From Alphaproteobacteria bacterium (lineage in GTDB: Bacteria; Pseudomonadota; Alphaproteobacteria; ATCC43930; CGMCC-115725): a DNA stretch of 64,000 bases. This document shows positions 45,203 through 56,036 of the stretch, piece by piece; within the stretch, counting starts at the first letter, position 1; every line of letters starts with the position of its first letter. A program made the translations under genes and the position numbers. The notes below the pieces were generated by a model, which did no database searches, was not told where the DNA came from, and saw nothing but the letters and a program-made list of their open reading frames with translations. The stretch covers positions 1 to 64,000 of the forward strand of contig JAFAYW010000294.1 in assembly GCA_019240125.1 (NCBI GenBank), read 5' to 3'.

Positions 45203-45418
45203 CTGTGGTCTCCTCCATTCGCGGCGGTGACCGCACCGCGTTTTCGACAGATTGCGGCAATCGCCTGACTCGGCACAATAGGCCGCACCTCACAGCAGCC
45301 AAGCTATGTACGGGCGTCCGCCTTCAACGGAACCGGCTTGCTGCGGCGCACAATACTGTTGCGGCCACGAAATCAATCTCTAACCTGCTGGGAAACCGGG
45401 GTAGAGGCGGCGAGCAAT

Positions 45419-47728
45419 ATGGCGGTGCGATACACGGCCTCGCATTGGGGCATCTACGAGGTCGAGACAAACCCAGGCTTGCCGCCGAAACTGCGCCCGT
45501 TTCACCGAGATCCCGACCCATCGCCGATTGGACTGTATCAGCTCGACCCGGCGGTGCAGCGAATGCGCGTCGCGCGTCCGGCGGTGCGCCGCGGCTATCT
45601 CGAACACGGCCCCGATGCCGATCGCAGCGGGCGCGGCCGTGAGCCCTTTGTCGAGGTCGACTGGCCGGTCGCGCTTGATCTGGTGGCTGGCGAACTGACC
45701 CGGGTCAAGCAGGCCTACGGCAACGCGGCGATCTTCGGTGGCTCCTATGGCTGGGCCAGTGCCGGCCGCTTCCACCATGCGCAAAGCCAGGTGCATCGGT
45801 TTCTGAACGCGTTCGGCGGGTATGTGCGCCACGTCGACAGCTATAGCCTGGGCGCGGCGCGGGTCTTGATGCCGCACATCGTCGCCTCGATGGACGAACT
45901 CTGCGCGACCCATACGAGCTGGGACGTTCTCGCCGAGCACACGCAGCTTTTCGTCGCGTTTGGCGGCCTGCCCTTGAAGAACACGCAGATTTCATCCGGT
46001 GGCGCCGGCGACCATCGCGTGCGCGACGGGTTGCGCGGCATGGCAAGAGCGGGGGTTCGCTTTGTCAATGTCAGCCCGGTCGCCGACAATATCGATGTAG
46101 GGTCGCCACAATCGGTCGAGTGGCTGGCGGTGCGGCCGAACACCGACACCGCGCTGATGCTGGGGCTGGCCTATGTGCTGGAGCGCGACGGGCTGGCCGA
46201 TGCCGCGTTTCTTGCCCGGTACTGCGCCGGCTACCCGGTGTTCCAGCGCTACCTGCTCGGCGAGACCGACGGGCAGCCAAAAACTCCACGCTGGGCCGAG
46301 GCGATCTGCGGCGTGGCGGCGGCGCGGATCGAGGCATTGGCGCAGGAAATGGCCAGCCGCCGTACGATGATCAACATCGCTTATGCGTTGCAACGCGCCT
46401 CGCACGGCGAGCAGCCGTTCTGGATGCTGGTCACCCTGGCGGCGATGCTGGGCCAGATCGGCTTGCCGGGCGGCGGGTTTGGCGTCGGCTATGGCGCGAT
46501 GAACATGATGGGTAGCCCGCACCCGCGCTTTGCCGGCCCGACCCTGCCGCAGGGGCCGAACGGGGTGAAGGATTTCATCCCGGTGGCGCGCATCGCCGAC
46601 ATGCTGCTGAACCCCGGCGCGGCATTCACCTATAACGGCGAGACGCATAAATACGCCGACATCAAGCTGGTCTATTGGGCGGGCGGCAACCCCTACCACC
46701 ACCACCAGGACCTCAACCGGCTGCGCCAGGCTTGGGAGCGGCCGGAGACGATCGTCGTCCACGAGCAATACTGGACAGCGACCGCCAAGCACGCCGACAT
46801 CGTCCTGCCGGCGACAACCGCGCTCGAACGCAACGACATAAACGCCGCGACCCGCGAAGGCTTCCTGATCGCGATGCAGCAGGCGGTCGAGCCGCATGGC
46901 GAAGCGCGCAACGATTACCGCATCTTCGCCGATCTGTCGGCGCGGCTCGGCACACGCGAAATCTTCACCGAGGGTCTGAGCGAGGCCGCCTGGCTCAGGC
47001 GGCTTTATGACGAAGGCGCCGAACGCGCGTTGACCGTCGGTGTCGAGATGCCGCCCTTCGATGCGTTTTGGGAAGCCGGCTTCGTCGAGTTCTCCGGCCA
47101 GGATGAGTCCGTTGTGATGCTCGAAAACTTCAGGCGCGATCCCGATTATTTCAGGCTGCGCACACCCTCCGGCAAGATCGAGATCTTCTCGGAACGTATC
47201 GCCGGATTTGGCCTCGCCGACTGCCCTGGCTACCCCGTCTGGTTGCCGCCTGCCGAGTGGCGGGGTGCCGACAAGGCGGCACGGTATCCGCTCCACCTGT
47301 TGTCGGATCAGCCGGCGCGGCAGTTGCACAGCCAGCTCGATCACAGCCCGCACAGCACCGCGTTGCGCATCGAAGGCCGGGCGCCGGTCTATCTCAACCC
47401 GCGCGATGCGGCGGCGCGCGGCATCGCTGCTGGTGACATCGTCGAGGTGTTTAACGACCGTGGCGCCTGCCTGGCGGGCGCGGTGGTGAGCGATGACATC
47501 GCCCCGGGTGTTGCACGGCTGTCGACCGGCGCCTGGTTCGACCCGGGCGGCGGCAACTCACCTGAGCGGCACGGCAACCCGAACGTGTTGACGCTCGACC
47601 GCGGCGCCTCCTCGTTCTCGCAGGGCTGCGCGGCGCAGACCTGCCTGGTCGAGGTGCGGTCGTTTGGCGGCACACTGCCGGCATTGGAAGCGCATCGACC
47701 GCCGCAATTGTTGCACGCGGCTGAGTAG
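45419..47728 (+). CDS. BisC/TorA-type molybdopterin oxidoreductase
   Basis: The protein has 769 residues. It lacks an N-terminal iron-sulfur cysteine motif and a Tat signal, as in cytoplasmic biotin sulfoxide reductase BisC. GGSYGWASAGRFHHAQSQ contains the serine that ligates molybdenum in the DMSO-reductase type III group. AAMLGQIGLPGGGFGVGYG, KHADIVLPATTALERND and SDQPARQLHSQLDHSPHS are cofactor-binding regions. It should reduce S- or N-oxides with a bis-MGD cofactor. I start at ATG 45419; the ORF track extension has no motif. A salvage or detoxification role beside the oxygenases is plausible. Confidence 0.88.
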   Translation: MAVRYTASHWGIYEVETNPGLPPKLRPFHRDPDPSPIGLYQLDPAVQRMRVARPAVRRGYLEHGPDADRSGRGREPFVEVDWPVALDLVAGELTRVKQAYGNAAIFGGSYGWASAGRFHHAQSQVHRFLNAFGGYVRHVDSYSLGAARVLMPHIVASMDELCATHTSWDVLAEHTQLFVAFGGLPLKNTQISSGGAGDHRVRDGLRGMARAGVRFVNVSPVADNIDVGSPQSVEWLAVRPNTDTALMLGLAYVLERDGLADAAFLARYCAGYPVFQRYLLGETDGQPKTPRWAEAICGVAAARIEALAQEMASRRTMINIAYALQRASHGEQPFWMLVTLAAMLGQIGLPGGGFGVGYGAMNMMGSPHPRFAGPTLPQGPNGVKDFIPVARIADMLLNPGAAFTYNGETHKYADIKLVYWAGGNPYHHHQDLNRLRQAWERPETIVVHEQYWTATAKHADIVLPATTALERNDINAATREGFLIAMQQAVEPHGEARNDYRIFADLSARLGTREIFTEGLSEAAWLRRLYDEGAERALTVGVEMPPFDAFWEAGFVEFSGQDESVVMLENFRRDPDYFRLRTPSGKIEIFSERIAGFGLADCPGYPVWLPPAEWRGADKAARYPLHLLSDQPARQLHSQLDHSPHSTALRIEGRAPVYLNPRDAAARGIAAGDIVEVFNDRGACLAGAVVSDDIAPGVARLSTGAWFDPGGGNSPERHGNPNVLTLDRGASSFSQGCAAQTCLVEVRSFGGTLPALEAHRPPQLLHAAE

Positions 47729-47745: not shown

Positions 47746-49302
47746 TCAATGCGCGTCGGCGGGGGCCGGTTTCGGCGCGACTTTGCGCAACAGCGGCACC
47801 GCCAATGTGGCGATGACAAAGGCCAGCATGATGGCGCGGAACGCGTCGGCATAGGCCAGCGTCGCGGCCTCCCGATAGGCGAGCTGCCACAGCTGTTTCA
47901 GGGCCGCGACGTGGCCGGCATCGGTGCCGCCCAGCGCCGCGGCGTAGCGCGCGCTAAGCCCCTGCACCATGTGCTGCATCGGGATGTTGGCCGGTGTTAG
48001 ATGCGATGCGATATCATGGAAGTGTGAGTTCGTGCGGATGTTGAGGATGGCGCCGCCCAGCGCGATGCCGACCGCGCCGCCCATGTTGCGCATCATGTTG
48101 AAGAGGCCGCTGGCATATTGCAGCCGTGCCATCGGCAAACTGCCGAGGCCAAGCGTCACCGCCGGCGCTACCGCGAAGACCTGCGGGAAGCCGCGCAGAA
48201 TCTGTGGCACCAGCAATTCGGCACCGCCCCAATCGTGGGTGATATAGCTGAAGGACCACATCGACACGCCGAACATCGCCAGGCCAAACATCATCAGCCA
48301 GCGCAGATCGACCCGTTTGCCCAGGGCGACATAGATCGGTACGCCGACCAGCGACGCGACGCCGGTCGAAAAGATCGCGACACCGGTCTGCCAGGCGCTG
48401 AAGCCGCGCACATAGCCGAGAAACAGCGGCGTCAGGTAGATCGTCGAGAAGATGCCGATCCCGGTCACGAAAGACAGGAAACAGCCCAGCGCGAAGTTAC
48501 GGTCCTGCAACGCACGCAGCTCGACGACAGGCCGCTCGACCGACAGGCTGCGCCAGATGAACAGCGCGAGGGATATGCCGGCGATCCAGGCGCAGTCGCG
48601 GATTGTGCTGTCGTCAAACCAGTTCCACCGCGCGCCCTCTTCCAGCACGTATTCGAGCGTGCCCAGCGCCGCTGCCATCAGGGCGATTGCGGGATAATCC
48701 GCACCCTTAAGCAGGGTCAGGTCTGGCTTGTCGATTTTCACCAGCAACGGCACCGCGATTGCCACCGCCGCGCCCGGCAGCAGGTTGATATAGAACAGCC
48801 AGTGCCAATCGAGCGTGTCGGTGATCCAGCCGCCGATCACCGGTCCGAGAGTCGGCGCGACCGAGGCGATCGTGCCTACCACCGCGGCCGCGTAAACCCG
48901 TCGCTGCCCATCGAAATAATGGAAGGACGAGGTGAAGACGGTCGGGATCATCGATGCGCCAAGCAGGCCTTGCAGTGCCCGGAACACGATCATGCTCTCG
49001 ATATTCCAGGCCATGCCGCACAGCAGACTGGCGATGGTGAACCCGGCGGCCGAGGCAGCGAACAGCCAGCGTGTCGAAAACACCCGGGTCAGCCAGCCGG
49101 ATAACGGGATGACAATGATCTCGGCGATCAGATAGGCGGTCTGTACCCAGCTGATATCGTCCTGTGCCGCCGACAGACCGCCACCAATCTGCTGCAATGA
49201 CGCGGCGACGATCTGGATGTCGAGCAGCGCCACAAACATGCCGACGCACATCACCGCAAACGGCACGATGCTGCGCAGGAAGGATTGGTTCTCGGCACTC
49301 AT
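47746..49302 (-). CDS. emrB: DHA2-family drug efflux transporter (EmrB-like)
   Basis: This 518-residue inner-membrane protein has about 14 helices. DHA2/EmrB motifs include LDIQIVAASLQQIGGGLSAA (motif D1), WVQTAYLIAEIIVIPLSGWL (motif A region) and GPVIGGWITDTLDWHWLFYI (motif C). It exports hydrophobic compounds by proton antiport, with an EmrA-type adaptor and an outer-membrane channel. It is the last gene of hxlR-emrA-emrB. The 183 bases between emrA and emrB hold a GC-rich repeat split by an insertion. It converges on the molybdoenzyme gene with only 17 bases between stops. Confidence 0.9.
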   Translation of the reverse strand: MSAENQSFLRSIVPFAVMCVGMFVALLDIQIVAASLQQIGGGLSAAQDDISWVQTAYLIAEIIVIPLSGWLTRVFSTRWLFAASAAGFTIASLLCGMAWNIESMIVFRALQGLLGASMIPTVFTSSFHYFDGQRRVYAAAVVGTIASVAPTLGPVIGGWITDTLDWHWLFYINLLPGAAVAIAVPLLVKIDKPDLTLLKGADYPAIALMAAALGTLEYVLEEGARWNWFDDSTIRDCAWIAGISLALFIWRSLSVERPVVELRALQDRNFALGCFLSFVTGIGIFSTIYLTPLFLGYVRGFSAWQTGVAIFSTGVASLVGVPIYVALGKRVDLRWLMMFGLAMFGVSMWSFSYITHDWGGAELLVPQILRGFPQVFAVAPAVTLGLGSLPMARLQYASGLFNMMRNMGGAVGIALGGAILNIRTNSHFHDIASHLTPANIPMQHMVQGLSARYAAALGGTDAGHVAALKQLWQLAYREAATLAYADAFRAIMLAFVIATLAVPLLRKVAPKPAPADAH

Positions 49303-49485: not shown

Positions 49486-50580
49486 CTAGCGGCCATCGCG
49501 GGTATCGACTGACGCGACGACCGATAGGCCGGCGCGCAGCAGGCCGAGCGTGCCGCCCTCGTCACCGAGAGCGACGCGGACGGGGACGCGCTGCACGATC
49601 TTGGTAAAGTTGCCGGTGGCGTTTTCCGCCGGGATCACCGCGAAAACCGAGCCGGTAGCCGGCGCCAGGCTCTGCACGCGACCGTGGAACACCCGGCCCG
49701 GAAATACATCGGCGATAATGTTTACGTCCTGCCCTGGCCGCATATGGGCGAGCTGATCTTCCTTGAAATTGGCGTCGACCCACAGCCCCTGCGACGGCAC
49801 CACCGACAGCAGCGTCGTGCCGGTCGTCACATAGGCGCCGACCTGCGCCCCGCGCGCCCCGACATAGCCGTCGATCGGCGCGTTGATGTGCGTATAGCCG
49901 AGATCGAGCACGGCGGTTTCGCGATCGGCCTTGGCCTGGGCGAGGCTCGCCTCGGTTTCGGCGATCTGCGTGTCGATCACCGTCAGCTTCTGGCGCGACG
50001 CGGCCAGTGTCGCCTCGGCGGCCTGCACGCCGGCTTGTGCCTGACGATCGGCGGTGAAGGCCTTCTGGTCGTTCTGCGCCGAGCCATAGCTGGTCAACGC
50101 CAGATTGTGGTAGCGGTCGGCGTCGATGCGGGCATAGCCGGCAGTGGCTTTCGCCGAAGCAAGGCTCGCCGCCATCTGGTCGATCGTCGATTGCTGCATC
50201 GTGTATTCGGCGTGCAAATTGGCGAGCGCCGCGGTTTCGTGCTGCACCGCCGCCTCGGCATGCGCGAGCTTCGCCCTATAGTCGCGATCGTCGAGCTCGA
50301 TCATCGGATCGCCGGCATGCACGAACTGATTATCGGTGACGAGGATCTTCGACACGAAACCGGCGACATGCGGCGACAAGGCCGTGACATTGCCACCGAC
50401 GTAGGCGTCGTCGGTGCTTTCTAAGAAGCGGCCGACGGTCCACCACTGCCAGCCATAGGCGAGCGCCGCGGGCACCAGGATGATCGCGAGCAAGGCCGCG
50501 ATCATCTGCTTGCGGGTGAGGCGGACCAGCGAGCGGCCGGGCGCGGCGAGGGTGCCGCGTTCGACAACGGTGCTACTCAT
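49486..50580 (-). CDS. emrA: EmrA-like HlyD-family efflux adaptor
   Basis: The protein has 364 residues. A short cytoplasmic N-terminus and one membrane helix (IAALLAIILVPAALAYGWQW) lead to the EmrA hallmark RFLESTDDAYVGGNVTALSP. A lipoyl half, a long coiled-coil hairpin, and the second half with TTLLSVVPSQGLWVDANFKE follow. It connects the DHA2 pump to an outer-membrane channel. ATG 50580 is inside the end of the regulator gene (8-base overlap), indicating coupling; the ORF track start is 55 codons too early. Confidence 0.9.
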   Translation of the reverse strand: MSSTVVERGTLAAPGRSLVRLTRKQMIAALLAIILVPAALAYGWQWWTVGRFLESTDDAYVGGNVTALSPHVAGFVSKILVTDNQFVHAGDPMIELDDRDYRAKLAHAEAAVQHETAALANLHAEYTMQQSTIDQMAASLASAKATAGYARIDADRYHNLALTSYGSAQNDQKAFTADRQAQAGVQAAEATLAASRQKLTVIDTQIAETEASLAQAKADRETAVLDLGYTHINAPIDGYVGARGAQVGAYVTTGTTLLSVVPSQGLWVDANFKEDQLAHMRPGQDVNIIADVFPGRVFHGRVQSLAPATGSVFAVIPAENATGNFTKIVQRVPVRVALGDEGGTLGLLRAGLSVVASVDTRDGR

Positions 50581-51121
50581 GGGGGGCTCCCTCATTCGCA
50601 GGGGAAATGTTGGAGTCGCGCGCGGCGCGCTCGCGCTGCTGCGCCGCGAATTCGAGCTTGCGGCGCACGCCTTCGCCCGCGGCGGGCCCGGGGATGTAGA
50701 CAAAGTCGGGCGGCTGGATCGGTCGGCCGCTGCGGCGATCGACAACCACGGGATCGGCTTGCTCGCCGGTTTCGGCGTCGACCAGGGCGACGCTCAGCCC
50801 CTCGGGCGCGAAATGCCTGTTGCCCCAGGCGAGCAGGGTCAACAACACCGGACGGAAATCGCGGCCGCGCTCGGTGAGCAGATATTCGTAGCGCGGCGGC
50901 CGTTCATTGTACTGGCGCCGTTCGAGAAGCCCGCCTTCAACCAGCGCGTTGAGCCGCCGCGTCAGGATGTTTGGCGCGATCTCGAGGCTTTTCTGGAACT
51001 CGTCAAACCGGCTGAGCCCATGAAACGCGTCGCGCAGGATCAGAATGCTCCACCACTCGCCGACATGTTCGAGGCCCCGCGCGACCGGGCACTGCATGTT
51101 GCCGAAGCTCTTCCGTTCCAC
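50573..51121 (-). CDS. HxlR-family transcriptional regulator
   Basis: The protein has 182 residues from GTG 51121, giving the family N-terminus VERKSFGNMQCPVARGLEHV. The cysteine in NMQCPVA is the residue often used for redox or electrophile sensing in HxlR/YodB proteins. The winged helix contains LSRFDEFQKSLEIAPNILTRRL and the wing RYEYLLTERGRDF. The start is preceded by AAGGG, and the ORF track start at 51196 would translate through the operator. Two identical palindromes lie 13-51 bases upstream, so it probably represses its own operon with emrA and emrB and is relieved by a toxic compound. Confidence 0.88.
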   Translation of the reverse strand: MERKSFGNMQCPVARGLEHVGEWWSILILRDAFHGLSRFDEFQKSLEIAPNILTRRLNALVEGGLLERRQYNERPPRYEYLLTERGRDFRPVLLTLLAWGNRHFAPEGLSVALVDAETGEQADPVVVDRRSGRPIQPPDFVYIPGPAAGEGVRRKLEFAAQQRERAARDSNISPANEGAPHE

Positions 51122-51133
51122 CGCGTAACCCTT

Positions 51134-51172
51134 ACTTGCATGACGCAAGTCAGTAACTTGCATGACGCAAGT
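51134..51172. promoter_or_regulatory. Doubled palindromic operator of the HxlR-emrAB operon
   Basis: ACTTGCATGACGCAAGT occurs at 51134-51150 and again identically at 51156-51172, separated by CAGTA. Each copy is a palindrome with ACTTGC/GCAAGT arms. The 22-bp centre spacing is about two helical turns, putting two dimers on the same face of the DNA. The location just before the regulator start is typical of autoregulation. Confidence 0.85.
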
Positions 51173-51274: not shown

Positions 51275-52618
51275 ATGAACAAGCGGCGGATGCACCTCGC
51301 TTTCGACCTCTCCTACATTCATATGGAGGGGCGCTGGCGCATGCCGGGAGCAGCGCTGGGCCGCTACCCCGATGTGGCGGCGTTCGAGGAAATCGCCCGC
51401 ATCGCGGAGCGCGGTCTTCTCGACATGCTTTTTTCCGGCGACGGAACCGGGGTGCCGAGCACCTGGCAGGGCAGTCGCGACGCGGCAGTGCGCTGGGGCG
51501 TCAGCTGGCCGCGCCAGGATCTGGCACCGCTGGCGGTGGCGATGTCACGGGTGACGCAGCATCTCGGCTTCGGCATCACCTATTCGACCACCTTCATGCA
51601 CCCCTATTACCTGGCGCGGCTGTTCAACTCGCTCGACCATGTCACCGGCGGGCGCATCGCGTTTAACGTGATCACCTCAACGCGGCGCTCGGACTACGCC
51701 AATTATGGCTATGACCACATCGTCGATCATGGCCAGCGTTATGACCGCATGGAGGAGTTTATCGATGTCTGCCGGGCCTTGTGGAACTCGGTCGAGCCCG
51801 ACGCCATGGTCTGGGACGCGGCGACCGGACAGGTCGGCGACCCGACAAAGGTTCACGATGTCGAACACCGCGGCCGCTTCTTCAATGTCAGCGGCCCGCT
51901 AAACACGCCGCCGTCGCCGCAGGGCCGTCCCATCCTGTTGCAGGCTGGAAACTCACCGCGCGGGGTCCGGGCGTCGGCCTATGTCGCCGATATGGCGTTT
52001 GGCGCCGACATGCCGCTGGAACTGCAGATCGCACAGCGCAAGGCGCTTGACGAGGCGGTGACGGCGCTGGGGCGCGATCCACAGGGCATGAGCATCGTGT
52101 GGCAACAGCCCTGTGTCGTACGCGAGACCGAGCAGGAGGCGGTGGCGCATCGCGAGCGCCTGCTGAGCGCCATTCCGCCAGAGGGGGTCGGCGTCTACCT
52201 GTCGCACAATGCCGGCTACGATTTCTCGACATTGCCGGAGCGCTTCACGCTCGGCGAGCTGCATCGCGAGATTATCGCCAGCCAGGCGTCTCCGGGCGGC
52301 TTCGTGCGCGAGATGGTGACGCGTTTCGGCGCCGATACCGAGATGACGCGAGCGGAATTCTTCGATTATGGCCGGCTGTTCGCCACCAGCTACACACGAA
52401 CCCTGGCCGGCAACCCCGCGCAGGTCGCCGACATCCTCGAGGAGAAATTCGAGGCTACTGGCAGTCGCGGCGGCTTCATGCTGGGGCATGTCGTGTCGAT
52501 GCCGACCGATCTCGCCGCGATTGCCGATCTGTTGGTGCCGGAATTGCAGCGGCGCGGTCGCTATCGCCGCGCATATAAGGGGTTTACGCTGCGCGAAAAT
52601 CTGTTCGACGACGATTGA
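51275..52618 (+). CDS. LLM-class flavin monooxygenase (NtaA/SnaA/DszA family), copy 1
   Basis: The protein has 447 residues in a bacterial luciferase-like TIM barrel. HLAFDLSYIHMEGRWRMPG at the start, GITYSTTFMHPYYLARLFNS and HVTGGRIAFNVITS are characteristic of the NtaA/SnaA/DszA group. PSPQGRPILLQAGNSPRG is the FMN-site segment. These enzymes use FMNH2 from a separate reductase to oxidise nitrilotriacetate, EDTA, dibenzothiophene sulfone or similar substrates. No reductase gene is in the window. ATG 51275 is chosen on conservation; its ribosome site is weak. It is about 25 bases upstream of the TauD-like gene and probably co-transcribed. Confidence 0.9.
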   Translation: MNKRRMHLAFDLSYIHMEGRWRMPGAALGRYPDVAAFEEIARIAERGLLDMLFSGDGTGVPSTWQGSRDAAVRWGVSWPRQDLAPLAVAMSRVTQHLGFGITYSTTFMHPYYLARLFNSLDHVTGGRIAFNVITSTRRSDYANYGYDHIVDHGQRYDRMEEFIDVCRALWNSVEPDAMVWDAATGQVGDPTKVHDVEHRGRFFNVSGPLNTPPSPQGRPILLQAGNSPRGVRASAYVADMAFGADMPLELQIAQRKALDEAVTALGRDPQGMSIVWQQPCVVRETEQEAVAHRERLLSAIPPEGVGVYLSHNAGYDFSTLPERFTLGELHREIIASQASPGGFVREMVTRFGADTEMTRAEFFDYGRLFATSYTRTLAGNPAQVADILEEKFEATGSRGGFMLGHVVSMPTDLAAIADLLVPELQRRGRYRRAYKGFTLRENLFDDD

Positions 52619-52642
52619 TGCCACCGCCGAGGTGACCCGCAA

Positions 52643-53737
52643 ATGCTCGCGACCCATAACGCCGCCACTGAGACCCCGCCGCCGATGACGTCGCGCCGGC
52701 CCGTCGAGGGACCCTCCGCCTGGTTTGCCGCCGATATGCGGGCGCGCCAGGACGAGTGGACCTACTGTCTGTCGCCAACCGAGGTGGCGGAGATCGAAAC
52801 GGCGGTGCGCGAGGTGCGTGCCCGCGGGCTGGAGCTCGCCGATACCCGCGCCGAGGATTTTCCGCTGCCCACCCTGGCGCCGGTTTTGCGGCAGTTGCGC
52901 GATGAGGTGTTGCACGGCCGCGGCTTTGTCCTGTTGCGCGGCATGCCGGTCGAAAACCGGCCAATCGCCGAAAGTGCCACAGCCTATTGGGGCGTCGGCG
53001 CGCATTTTGGCAAGGCACGCTCGCAGAATGCCAAGGGGCATCTGCTGGGGCATGTCTACGATCTCGGCGACAGCAGCGAAACCAATCCCAATGTGCGCAG
53101 CTATGCCACCGCCGAGCGGCAGAATTTCCATATCGATCGCTGCGACGTGGTGGCGTTGCTGTGCCTGCGGCGCGCCAAATCGGGCGGCCTCTCGGCGCTC
53201 GTGAGCTCGATGACGATGCACAATGTCATGTTGGAACGGCGCCCCGACCTATTGGAGCGGCTGTACCAGCCATTCGCCGTCGATCGCCGCGGCGAGGTTC
53301 CGGAAGGGAAGGGGCCATATTACGAGGCGCCGATTTACAATGAACATGACGGCACGGTGTCGGTGATCTACTCGCGCCAGTACATCAACTCGGCGCAGCG
53401 CTTTCTTGAAGCGCGGCGGCTGACGCCAGAAGACCACGAGGCTTTGGTGATGTTCAATCAACTGGCGGCCGACCCGGAACTGTGCCTCGACATGAGTTTC
53501 ATGCCCGGCGATGTGCAATTTCTGCACAACCACACGATCCTGCACGCCCGCACCGGTTATGAGGACTGGCCCGATATCGAACGCAAACGGCACCTGCTGC
53601 GGTTGTGGCTGTCGCCCGACGGCGCCCGCCCGCTGCCGCCCGTCTTCACTGAAGTCTATGGCGCGCTGACGATCGGCGATCGCGGCGGCATCATCTGCAA
53701 GGAAACTCGCCTGCACGCCCCGCTCGAACCGGCCTGA
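52643..53737 (+). CDS. TauD-like Fe/2-oxoglutarate oxygenase, copy 2
   Basis: The protein has 364 residues. NFHIDRCDVVALLCL provides the HxD iron ligands, LHNHTILHARTGYED the distal His, and KRHLLRLWLSPDGARPLPP the 2-oxoglutarate Arg. The first 110 residues contain EVLHGRGFVLLRGMPVE. It belongs to a branch distinct from classic TauD and resembles the protein at 60864-61940 in the spacing of its motifs and the SRQYINSAQRF-type segment. It is 24 bases downstream of the flavin monooxygenase, suggesting consecutive oxidations of one substrate. An ATG at residue 15 is an alternative start. Confidence 0.87.
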   Translation: MLATHNAATETPPPMTSRRPVEGPSAWFAADMRARQDEWTYCLSPTEVAEIETAVREVRARGLELADTRAEDFPLPTLAPVLRQLRDEVLHGRGFVLLRGMPVENRPIAESATAYWGVGAHFGKARSQNAKGHLLGHVYDLGDSSETNPNVRSYATAERQNFHIDRCDVVALLCLRRAKSGGLSALVSSMTMHNVMLERRPDLLERLYQPFAVDRRGEVPEGKGPYYEAPIYNEHDGTVSVIYSRQYINSAQRFLEARRLTPEDHEALVMFNQLAADPELCLDMSFMPGDVQFLHNHTILHARTGYEDWPDIERKRHLLRLWLSPDGARPLPPVFTEVYGALTIGDRGGIICKETRLHAPLEPA

Positions 53738-54028: not shown

Positions 54029-55387
54029 TCAGCTTGCCGCGGCGTAGCGGCTGGCGGGGCGTTCGAGGCCGAGATTGTCGCGTAACGTCGGCCCCTCGTA
54101 ATCCTCGCGGAACAGGGCGCGGTTCTGCAATTCGGGGACGACCAGCTCGACAAAATCGCTGAGCCCGCCGGGCAAGGTCGCGGGGTGTACGAGAAACCCA
54201 TCAACGCCGTAATCGCGGAACCACTCTTCCATGTCGTCGGCGATCTCAACCGCGGAGCCGATCAGGGTGCGCTGTCCGCGCGCGCCGGCAAAGCGTTGAT
54301 ATAACTGACGGATCGTCAGTTTTTCCTCGTGTGCCCAGCGCAGCACGTTGTTCATTGAGGTCTTGCCGGCGAGTGTACCGTAATGGTCAGGAATATCCGG
54401 CAGAGGCCCATCGAGGTCGTATTCCGACAAGTCGAACCCGCCGACGGCGTTGGTCAATAATTCGATCCCGACATCAGGATGAATGCTCTGCTGCAGCCGC
54501 TCGTACTTTTCCAGCGCCTCTTGCTTGGTGCGTCCGACGATCGCGTTGAGCCCGGGCATAATTTTCAGCGCTTCCGGCGGTCTACCATAGCGCGCCATGC
54601 GGCCCTTCAGGTCGCGGTAGAATTCCTGCGCACCGGCCAGTGAATGCTGCGGCGTAAACACCCCTTCGGCAAAACGCGCAGCTACCTCGCGGCCCGTCTC
54701 CGAGGAGCCGGCCTGGAACAGTACGGGATGGCCTTGCGGTGACCGGGCCACGTTGAGCGGGCCGCGCACCGAAAAATGCTCACCCTTGTGGTTGAGATGA
54801 TGCAGTTTCGCCGGGTCGAAATAACGCCCGCTGGCGCGGTCCCGGACAAACGCGTCATCGTCCCAGCTGTCCCACAGCCCCTGCACGATTTCGACGAACT
54901 CGACGGCCCGGTCGTAGCGCTCCTCGTGCTCGTAATGCTGTTCGCGGCCGAAATTGAATGCCTCGGATATGTTTGACGAGGTAACGACGTTCCAGCCGGC
55001 ACGGCCGTTACTGATGTGGTCGAGCGAGGCGAATTTGCGGGCGATATGATAGGGCTCGTTGTAGCTGGTGGTTGCGGTGGCCACGACGCCGATATGGCTG
55101 GTGACCGCCGCTATCGCGGGCAACAGCGTCAGCGGGTCGAAATAGGCCATGTATTGCGGCCAGCGGCTCAGCGCCGACAATTTGCCGTCGCGGGTCGCGA
55201 CCGCGTCGGCGACAAACATCAGGTCGAACTTGCCGTGCTCGGCGATCTGCGCGATTTCGGCATAGTGCCGGAAATTGGTGCCGGCATCGATCTGGGCCTC
55301 AGGCTGCAGCCAGGCCGCGACATGGTTGCCAGTCGGATGAAAGAAGGCGCCGAGCTTCAGCTTTTCGCCACGGCGTTGGTCCCGCAT
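54029..55387 (-). CDS. LLM-class flavin monooxygenase (NtaA/SnaA/DszA family), copy 2
   Basis: The protein has 452 residues. KLKLGAFFHPTGNHVAAWL begins the barrel; FDLMFVADAV, TTSYNEPYHIARKFASLDHI and NGRAGWNVVTS are family motifs. RSPQGHPVLFQAGSSETGRE is the FMN-site segment. It requires FMNH2 from a partner reductase. ATG 55387 has GGAGGG at proper spacing; the 60 extra residues in the ORF track come from the DUF1989 gene region. It is the third gene after hpaB-like and DUF1989 on the same strand. It is only distantly similar to copy 1, so the two probably act on different substrates or steps. Confidence 0.92.
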   Translation of the reverse strand: MRDQRRGEKLKLGAFFHPTGNHVAAWLQPEAQIDAGTNFRHYAEIAQIAEHGKFDLMFVADAVATRDGKLSALSRWPQYMAYFDPLTLLPAIAAVTSHIGVVATATTSYNEPYHIARKFASLDHISNGRAGWNVVTSSNISEAFNFGREQHYEHEERYDRAVEFVEIVQGLWDSWDDDAFVRDRASGRYFDPAKLHHLNHKGEHFSVRGPLNVARSPQGHPVLFQAGSSETGREVAARFAEGVFTPQHSLAGAQEFYRDLKGRMARYGRPPEALKIMPGLNAIVGRTKQEALEKYERLQQSIHPDVGIELLTNAVGGFDLSEYDLDGPLPDIPDHYGTLAGKTSMNNVLRWAHEEKLTIRQLYQRFAGARGQRTLIGSAVEIADDMEEWFRDYGVDGFLVHPATLPGGLSDFVELVVPELQNRALFREDYEGPTLRDNLGLERPASRYAAAS

Positions 55388-55445
55388 CGCACCCTCCAAC
55401 GCAAATGCCTCCCGGCCGGTGCAAAACCAAGGCCAGAGTTTGGGC

Positions 55446-56036
55446 CTAGTCGAGTATCTCATAATGCGCGGCGGTGGGGTGGAGCGCGGTGCCGTTGATC
55501 GGAATGATGTCCTGCGGGCAGGCCGAGAAGGCGACGATGCAATCCATCTCTGCGCGCAACACCACAAAGCTGCCGGGCGTGCTGACCGGCGGCAGAAACT
55601 CGATGCGCTGCCCGTCGAGCACGGGGATGTTCATGAACAGATTGAGCGGCGATGGCGTCTCGGGCGGGGTCATCCCAAGCTCCGCCAGCCCCGCGGCCAG
55701 ATTGTCGGTACAGTTGTCGTGATACTCGGCGCAGCCGAGCAGTTCATAGCGCCACCGGTCGCAGGCCGCGATCAGGGTGTCGTGAATGCCGCCGGACGTG
55801 TCCTCCATGACCCGCAGGATCGGCCGGCGCCGATTGGTGACCAGCACATCACCGGGCTTGGGGATGATGTGTCCCATCGCGACGCGGCTGTGCTCCATCG
55901 ACATGAATTCCGCAATGTCGGCGGCGTTAAAGCCCCACGTATCGACGACTTGCTGACCGTGCGTGTTGATCACCTTCACGCGTTGCCCTGGGCGAACTCG
56001 CGCTGCCCTGCCGCGCCGCGCCGGTATCTCGATCAT
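55446..56036 (-). CDS. DUF1989 (urea carboxylase-associated) protein
   Basis: The protein has 196 residues. RVRPGQRVKVINTHGQQVVD, DTWGFNA, EFMSMEHSRVA and CTDNLAAGLAELGM are DUF1989 hallmarks; GTALHPTAAHYEIL closes the domain. The family occurs beside urea carboxylase and allophanate hydrolase genes and in nitrogen-compound catabolism; its exact activity is not known to me. ATG 56036 overlaps the stop of the HpaB-like gene (ATGA), so the two are translationally coupled. No urea carboxylase is nearby, which points to a substrate other than urea. Confidence 0.88.
   Translation of the reverse strand: MIEIPARRGRAARVRPGQRVKVINTHGQQVVDTWGFNAADIAEFMSMEHSRVAMGHIIPKPGDVLVTNRRRPILRVMEDTSGGIHDTLIAACDRWRYELLGCAEYHDNCTDNLAAGLAELGMTPPETPSPLNLFMNIPVLDGQRIEFLPPVSTPGSFVVLRAEMDCIVAFSACPQDIIPINGTALHPTAAHYEILD

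Follow-up and report, generated by a model that had tools for sequence, protein, structure and literature searches.

Described relatives of the regulator and its pump

The HxlR family and the EmrAB pump are already known, as is the notion that a repressor may head the operon of its own pump; several described systems lie close to the locus reported here. MarR/DUF24 regulators carry a conserved N-terminal cysteine and sit on DNA as dimers (PMC7835342). The Firmicutes thiol sensors of this type—YodB, CatR, HypR, QsrR and HxlR—belong to the same PF01638 fold family as the protein studied here; the YodB disulfide is formed between C6 and C101' (PMC10458429), and the formaldehyde mechanism of HxlR is a Cys11-Lys13 bridge (PMC7835342). 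EmrR (MprA)-EmrAB of E. coli and EmrR-EmrCAB of Chromobacterium likewise place a MarR-superfamily regulator over an EmrAB-type pump (PMC6249546); EmrR is a classical MarR protein, whereas our regulator is an HxlR/DUF24 protein that has its own operator. A redox-sensing MarR-type repressor, SydR of Sinorhizobium meliloti (PMC11633110), acts through a pair of identical perfect palindromes, TATCGCGATA, next to its own gene, and such a pair is present at our locus too; SydR differs, however, in family branch and motif, and its palindromes are bound independently and serve two divergent promoters.

We analysed a 64,000-nucleotide stretch of alphaproteobacterial DNA (hereafter, the window), the regulator of which matches the solved structures of YodB, HypR/YybR, HxlR and QsrR. 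The closest solved structure by sequence is PDB 4gcv (and 2f2e, PA1607), aligned over residues 2-167 with E=7e-54; the entry is named only as a 'putative transcription protein', and neither an operator nor a ligand was found for 4gcv here. The window regulator is unlike the Firmicutes DUF24 sensors in having a pump operon as its target, a different operator and one cysteine only. A literature search, which covered few subscription journals, found no paper that connects HxlR with EmrAB or with this operator.

A duplicated palindrome ahead of an hxlR-emrA-emrB operon

The features of the locus are as follows.

47746..49302, minus strand: emrB-like DHA2 MFS permease gene (TIGR00711 over cut-off, E=6.8e-108)
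49486..50580, minus strand: emrA-like membrane-fusion protein gene (TIGR00998 E=9e-79, below the strict cut-off; PF16576 over cut-off)
50573..51121, minus strand: hxlR/DUF24 winged-helix regulator gene (182 aa, GTG start, single cysteine C11; PF01638 E=8.6e-22)
51134..51150, no strand: predicted operator copy 2, proximal to hxlR (17-bp palindrome ACTTGCATGACGCAAGT; PWM score 24.5)
51156..51172, no strand: predicted operator copy 1, distal to hxlR (identical 17-bp palindrome; PWM score 24.5)
51275-52618, plus strand: NtaA/DmoA-type FMN monooxygenase gene, divergent from hxlR

The regulator scores 77.2 bits against PF01638, for which the curated cut-off is 20.8, and is the one HxlR protein recognisable in the 6.27-Mb genome. 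Its reading frame remains open upstream through the palindromes; the best-supported start is the GTG at 51121 on the minus strand, since 80 relatives start at the aligned codon (78 ATG, 2 GTG), mostly with the N-terminus M(Q/R)RKSFGxMQC. The start of emrA (ATG) shares 8 bp with the end of hxlR, and emrB comes next, so that an EmrA-type adaptor, despite its sub-threshold TIGR00998 score, adjoins an EmrB-type DHA2 permease in what can be called an EmrAB pump operon, as the sequence-only reading of this DNA had proposed. No outer-membrane channel gene was seen beside the operon, and such proteins are encoded elsewhere. On the far side of the palindromes, two NtaA/DmoA-type FMN monooxygenase genes and a TauD-family dioxygenase gene (51275-53737 and 54029-55567) form a possible catabolic cluster beside the efflux operon. 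A 796-aa ORF convergent with emrB (45338-47728, plus strand) looks, from its translation, like a molybdopterin oxidoreductase of the DMSO/TMAO/biotin sulfoxide reductase kind.

The same reading had described two identical ACTTGC-N5-GCAAGT palindromes at 22-bp spacing just before the regulator start, and the exact sequence bears this out: the copies agree at 17/17 bases, lie 22 bp apart start to start, and leave 12 bp between the proximal copy and the GTG start codon. In a weight-matrix scan of the window, the next best score after the two palindromes was 6.0. The genome scan that had also been suggested was run with IUPAC patterns rather than the matrix; across 6.27 Mb, the exact motif occurred only at these two places, and a reversed control pattern gave 0 matches. 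As about 0.24 single sites per genome are expected by chance at the base composition of the window, a chance tandem pair is negligible. The exact tandem pattern, sought in 192 genomes, matched the window alone, because the relatives have degenerate arms and a spacing of about 32 bp.

Conservation and refinement of the predicted operator

To place the palindromes in a broader context, we collected 80 loci by protein similarity alone (61-78% identity), most of them from other taxa, and accepted as a site any sequence with ≤5 mismatches to ACTTGCATNATGCAAGT within 150 bp before hxlR. A matching palindrome was found in 70 of the 80 relatives, compared with 34 of 1600 shuffled sequences (2%)—a partly dependent test, given that the consensus was first seen in close relatives, some of which recur among the 80. 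Six to ten relatives were without a clear site. Column statistics revealed a nearly invariant centre, C-A-T-n-A-T-G, with AGT/ACT flanks favoured in the single-site class and a right arm that often reads ATAGT. The earlier description of the palindromes as an operator is supported by this conservation, but its unspecified N5 centre is not, as these positions are constrained. A better notation for the putative operator is ACTTGCAT-n-ATGCAAGT, in which each half-site measures 8 bp and the AGT/ACT flanks are weaker; the window sites depart from this form once (ACG for ATG).

Two further sets of palindromes were observed. Three loci (L042, L044 and L046) encode a different HxlR subfamily and have, before the HxlR paralogues, tandem palindromes of another sequence (AGTTCCGAAACGGAACT or variants) at a spacing of about 22-28 bp, which suggests that paired operators are usual in the HxlR family. 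An IMG/VR viral contig (L153) contains three near-identical ACTTGCAT-n-ATGCAAGT palindromes at 611, 1972 and 2660, two of them perfect and the third with a single mismatch, and a similar ...TCTCCA stretch comes after each; the three are probably a phage repeat that matches the operator by coincidence.

Promoter geometry and the atypical pair of the window

In 12/12 tandem pairs located before emrA, the -35 element (TTGCAT or TTGCAA) lies within the upstream site and is followed at 17 bp by TANANT; 1-2 bp further on comes the start of the second site, 32 bp from that of the first. A TANNNT hexamer occurred at such distances in 11 of 1580 control positions. A protein bound to the relatives' sites would cover both the -35 element and the start region, which argues for repression and accords, by way of this layout in relatives, with the repressor role assigned to HxlR in the initial reading. 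In the window itself, a sigma-70 scan around the sites recognised no promoter, and at 22 bp the two sites stand too close together to accommodate the -10 element that lies between the sites in relatives.

The window pair is also an outlier in other respects. Of 35 tandem pairs, 34 are spaced 29-39 bp apart and share 9-15 of 17 bases, compared with 22 bp and 17/17 in the window. The sole site of a same-genus relative (G002) aligns with the distal copy in the window, at an equal distance from a common TTGACG, and the proximal copy falls in an insertion relative to this genome. The pair thus probably arose by recent duplication, the proximal copy being the duplicate. Its spacing corresponds to about two helical turns instead of three, and both sites would still lie on one face of the DNA. 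In a protein tree, the place of the window protein came out without resolution.

The candidate sensor cysteine

The conserved N-terminal cysteine noted at the outset proved to be C11, located in helix 1, invariant in 81/81 proteins and the sole cysteine of the window protein. A YodB-type two-cysteine disulfide within the protein is ruled out on this ground. At position 13, all 81 proteins have I or V; the lysine two residues past the sensing cysteine is thus absent, and the formaldehyde-activated HxlR type, with its Cys11-Lys13 bridge, is likewise excluded. Sensing of electrophiles or drugs is plausible; alkylation, a mixed disulfide at C11 or a C11-C11' link are possible routes, as is direct binding of a pump substrate.

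Pump genes associated with the motif

The motif accompanies pump genes even where these are placed apart from the regulator gene. In 14 loci, most of them from betaproteobacteria, emrAB does not directly follow hxlR and a site or pair lies before emrA, with pairs at exactly 32-bp spacing in 12 of them; in one genome (G082), a perfect site precedes an emrA that is 131 kb from the hxlR orthologue and 51% identical to the window's emrA. Directly linked hxlR-emrA operons have pairs in 17/22 cases, and hxlR-MATE operons a single site in 13/14 and none in 1/14 (counts not corrected for relatedness). In the MATE group (L051:5534-6913, L067:5558-6979, L112:5501-6925 and L114:5504-6898), the HxlR gene overlaps a MATE-family pump gene that replaces emrA, and the single operator lies about 37 bp before hxlR.

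The motif had been put forward as searchable for a regulon. Among relatives, it does retrieve emrAB and MATE pump genes; in its own genome, no other good site emerged. Versions with ≤2 mismatches numbered 90 genome-wide, against 137 for the reversed control, and a degenerate form of the refined motif again returned just the two window sites. A wider regulon is therefore unsupported in this genome, where motif, regulator and pump are one local unit. Elsewhere, we observed a further site before a gene resembling, from its translation, a short-chain dehydrogenase (G018), an SDR gene divergent from hxlR (L061:3983-4822), and MaoC-like dehydratase genes in the same divergent position (L050:4442-4909, L063:4463-4945 and L098:4435-4971); the divergent dehydratase and dehydrogenase genes are a possible second target class.

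Weighing the explanations

We consider it highly probable that the palindromes serve the adjacent HxlR/DUF24 protein as tandem operators, through which it would repress its own hxlR-emrA-emrB operon. A homodimer would probably occupy each palindrome and, once bound, keep the operon repressed; an inducer would alter the dimer, which would then release the DNA and allow the pump to be made. The likeliest inducers are a thiol-reactive electrophile, which would attack the sole cysteine, or a pump substrate. The same sites might instead serve activation, with cysteine modification switching the pump on. The family includes activators, e.g., B. subtilis HxlR with formaldehyde (PMC7835342), and the unrecognised promoter and unusual site spacing of the window would fit such a role. 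Nevertheless, with one of the relatives' sites holding the -35 element and the other lying past the -10 element, a bound protein would block polymerase, and the formaldehyde bridge cannot form with I/V at residue 13, which makes activation improbable.

The palindromes also occupy the gap between two divergently oriented genes, with the FMN monooxygenase gene starting about 100 bp away, and could in principle serve mainly that gene or both directions at once. Yet the sites persist among the 80 relatives, only one of which has the monooxygenase near hxlR, and the sites go with emrA when emrA is elsewhere; we thus hold this explanation to be more improbable still than activation, although some control of both directions is conceivable. 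Virtually no credence can be given to a common genomic repeat or a chance match with no tie to HxlR: no support for it was found, two-mismatch versions being merely at background level, and both the uniqueness of the exact motif and its conservation at the same place before hxlR across several classes and phyla speak against it, to the point that both chance and a common repeat are ruled out. Repression of the pump operon by HxlR is hence the reading we retain.

A broader proposal, which we regard as evenly poised between right and wrong, is that the relatives form a large, apparently undescribed HxlR efflux regulog across Alpha- and Betaproteobacteria and a few other phyla, sharing the operator code defined above. 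Operator number would track pump type—tandem around the -10 element for most hxlR-emrAB operons, single for hxlR-MATE—and the window would be a variant in which duplication rebuilt the pair with a spacing of two helical turns, not three.

Implications

Through this analysis, a palindrome that carried no annotation becomes a well-supported predicted operator, for which there are now a precise consensus, a model of the promoter and a set of target pumps from many genomes. The inducer of a widespread, uncharacterised HxlR clade thereby becomes directly testable, and the window offers an example of a tandem operator seemingly re-made recently at a new spacing.
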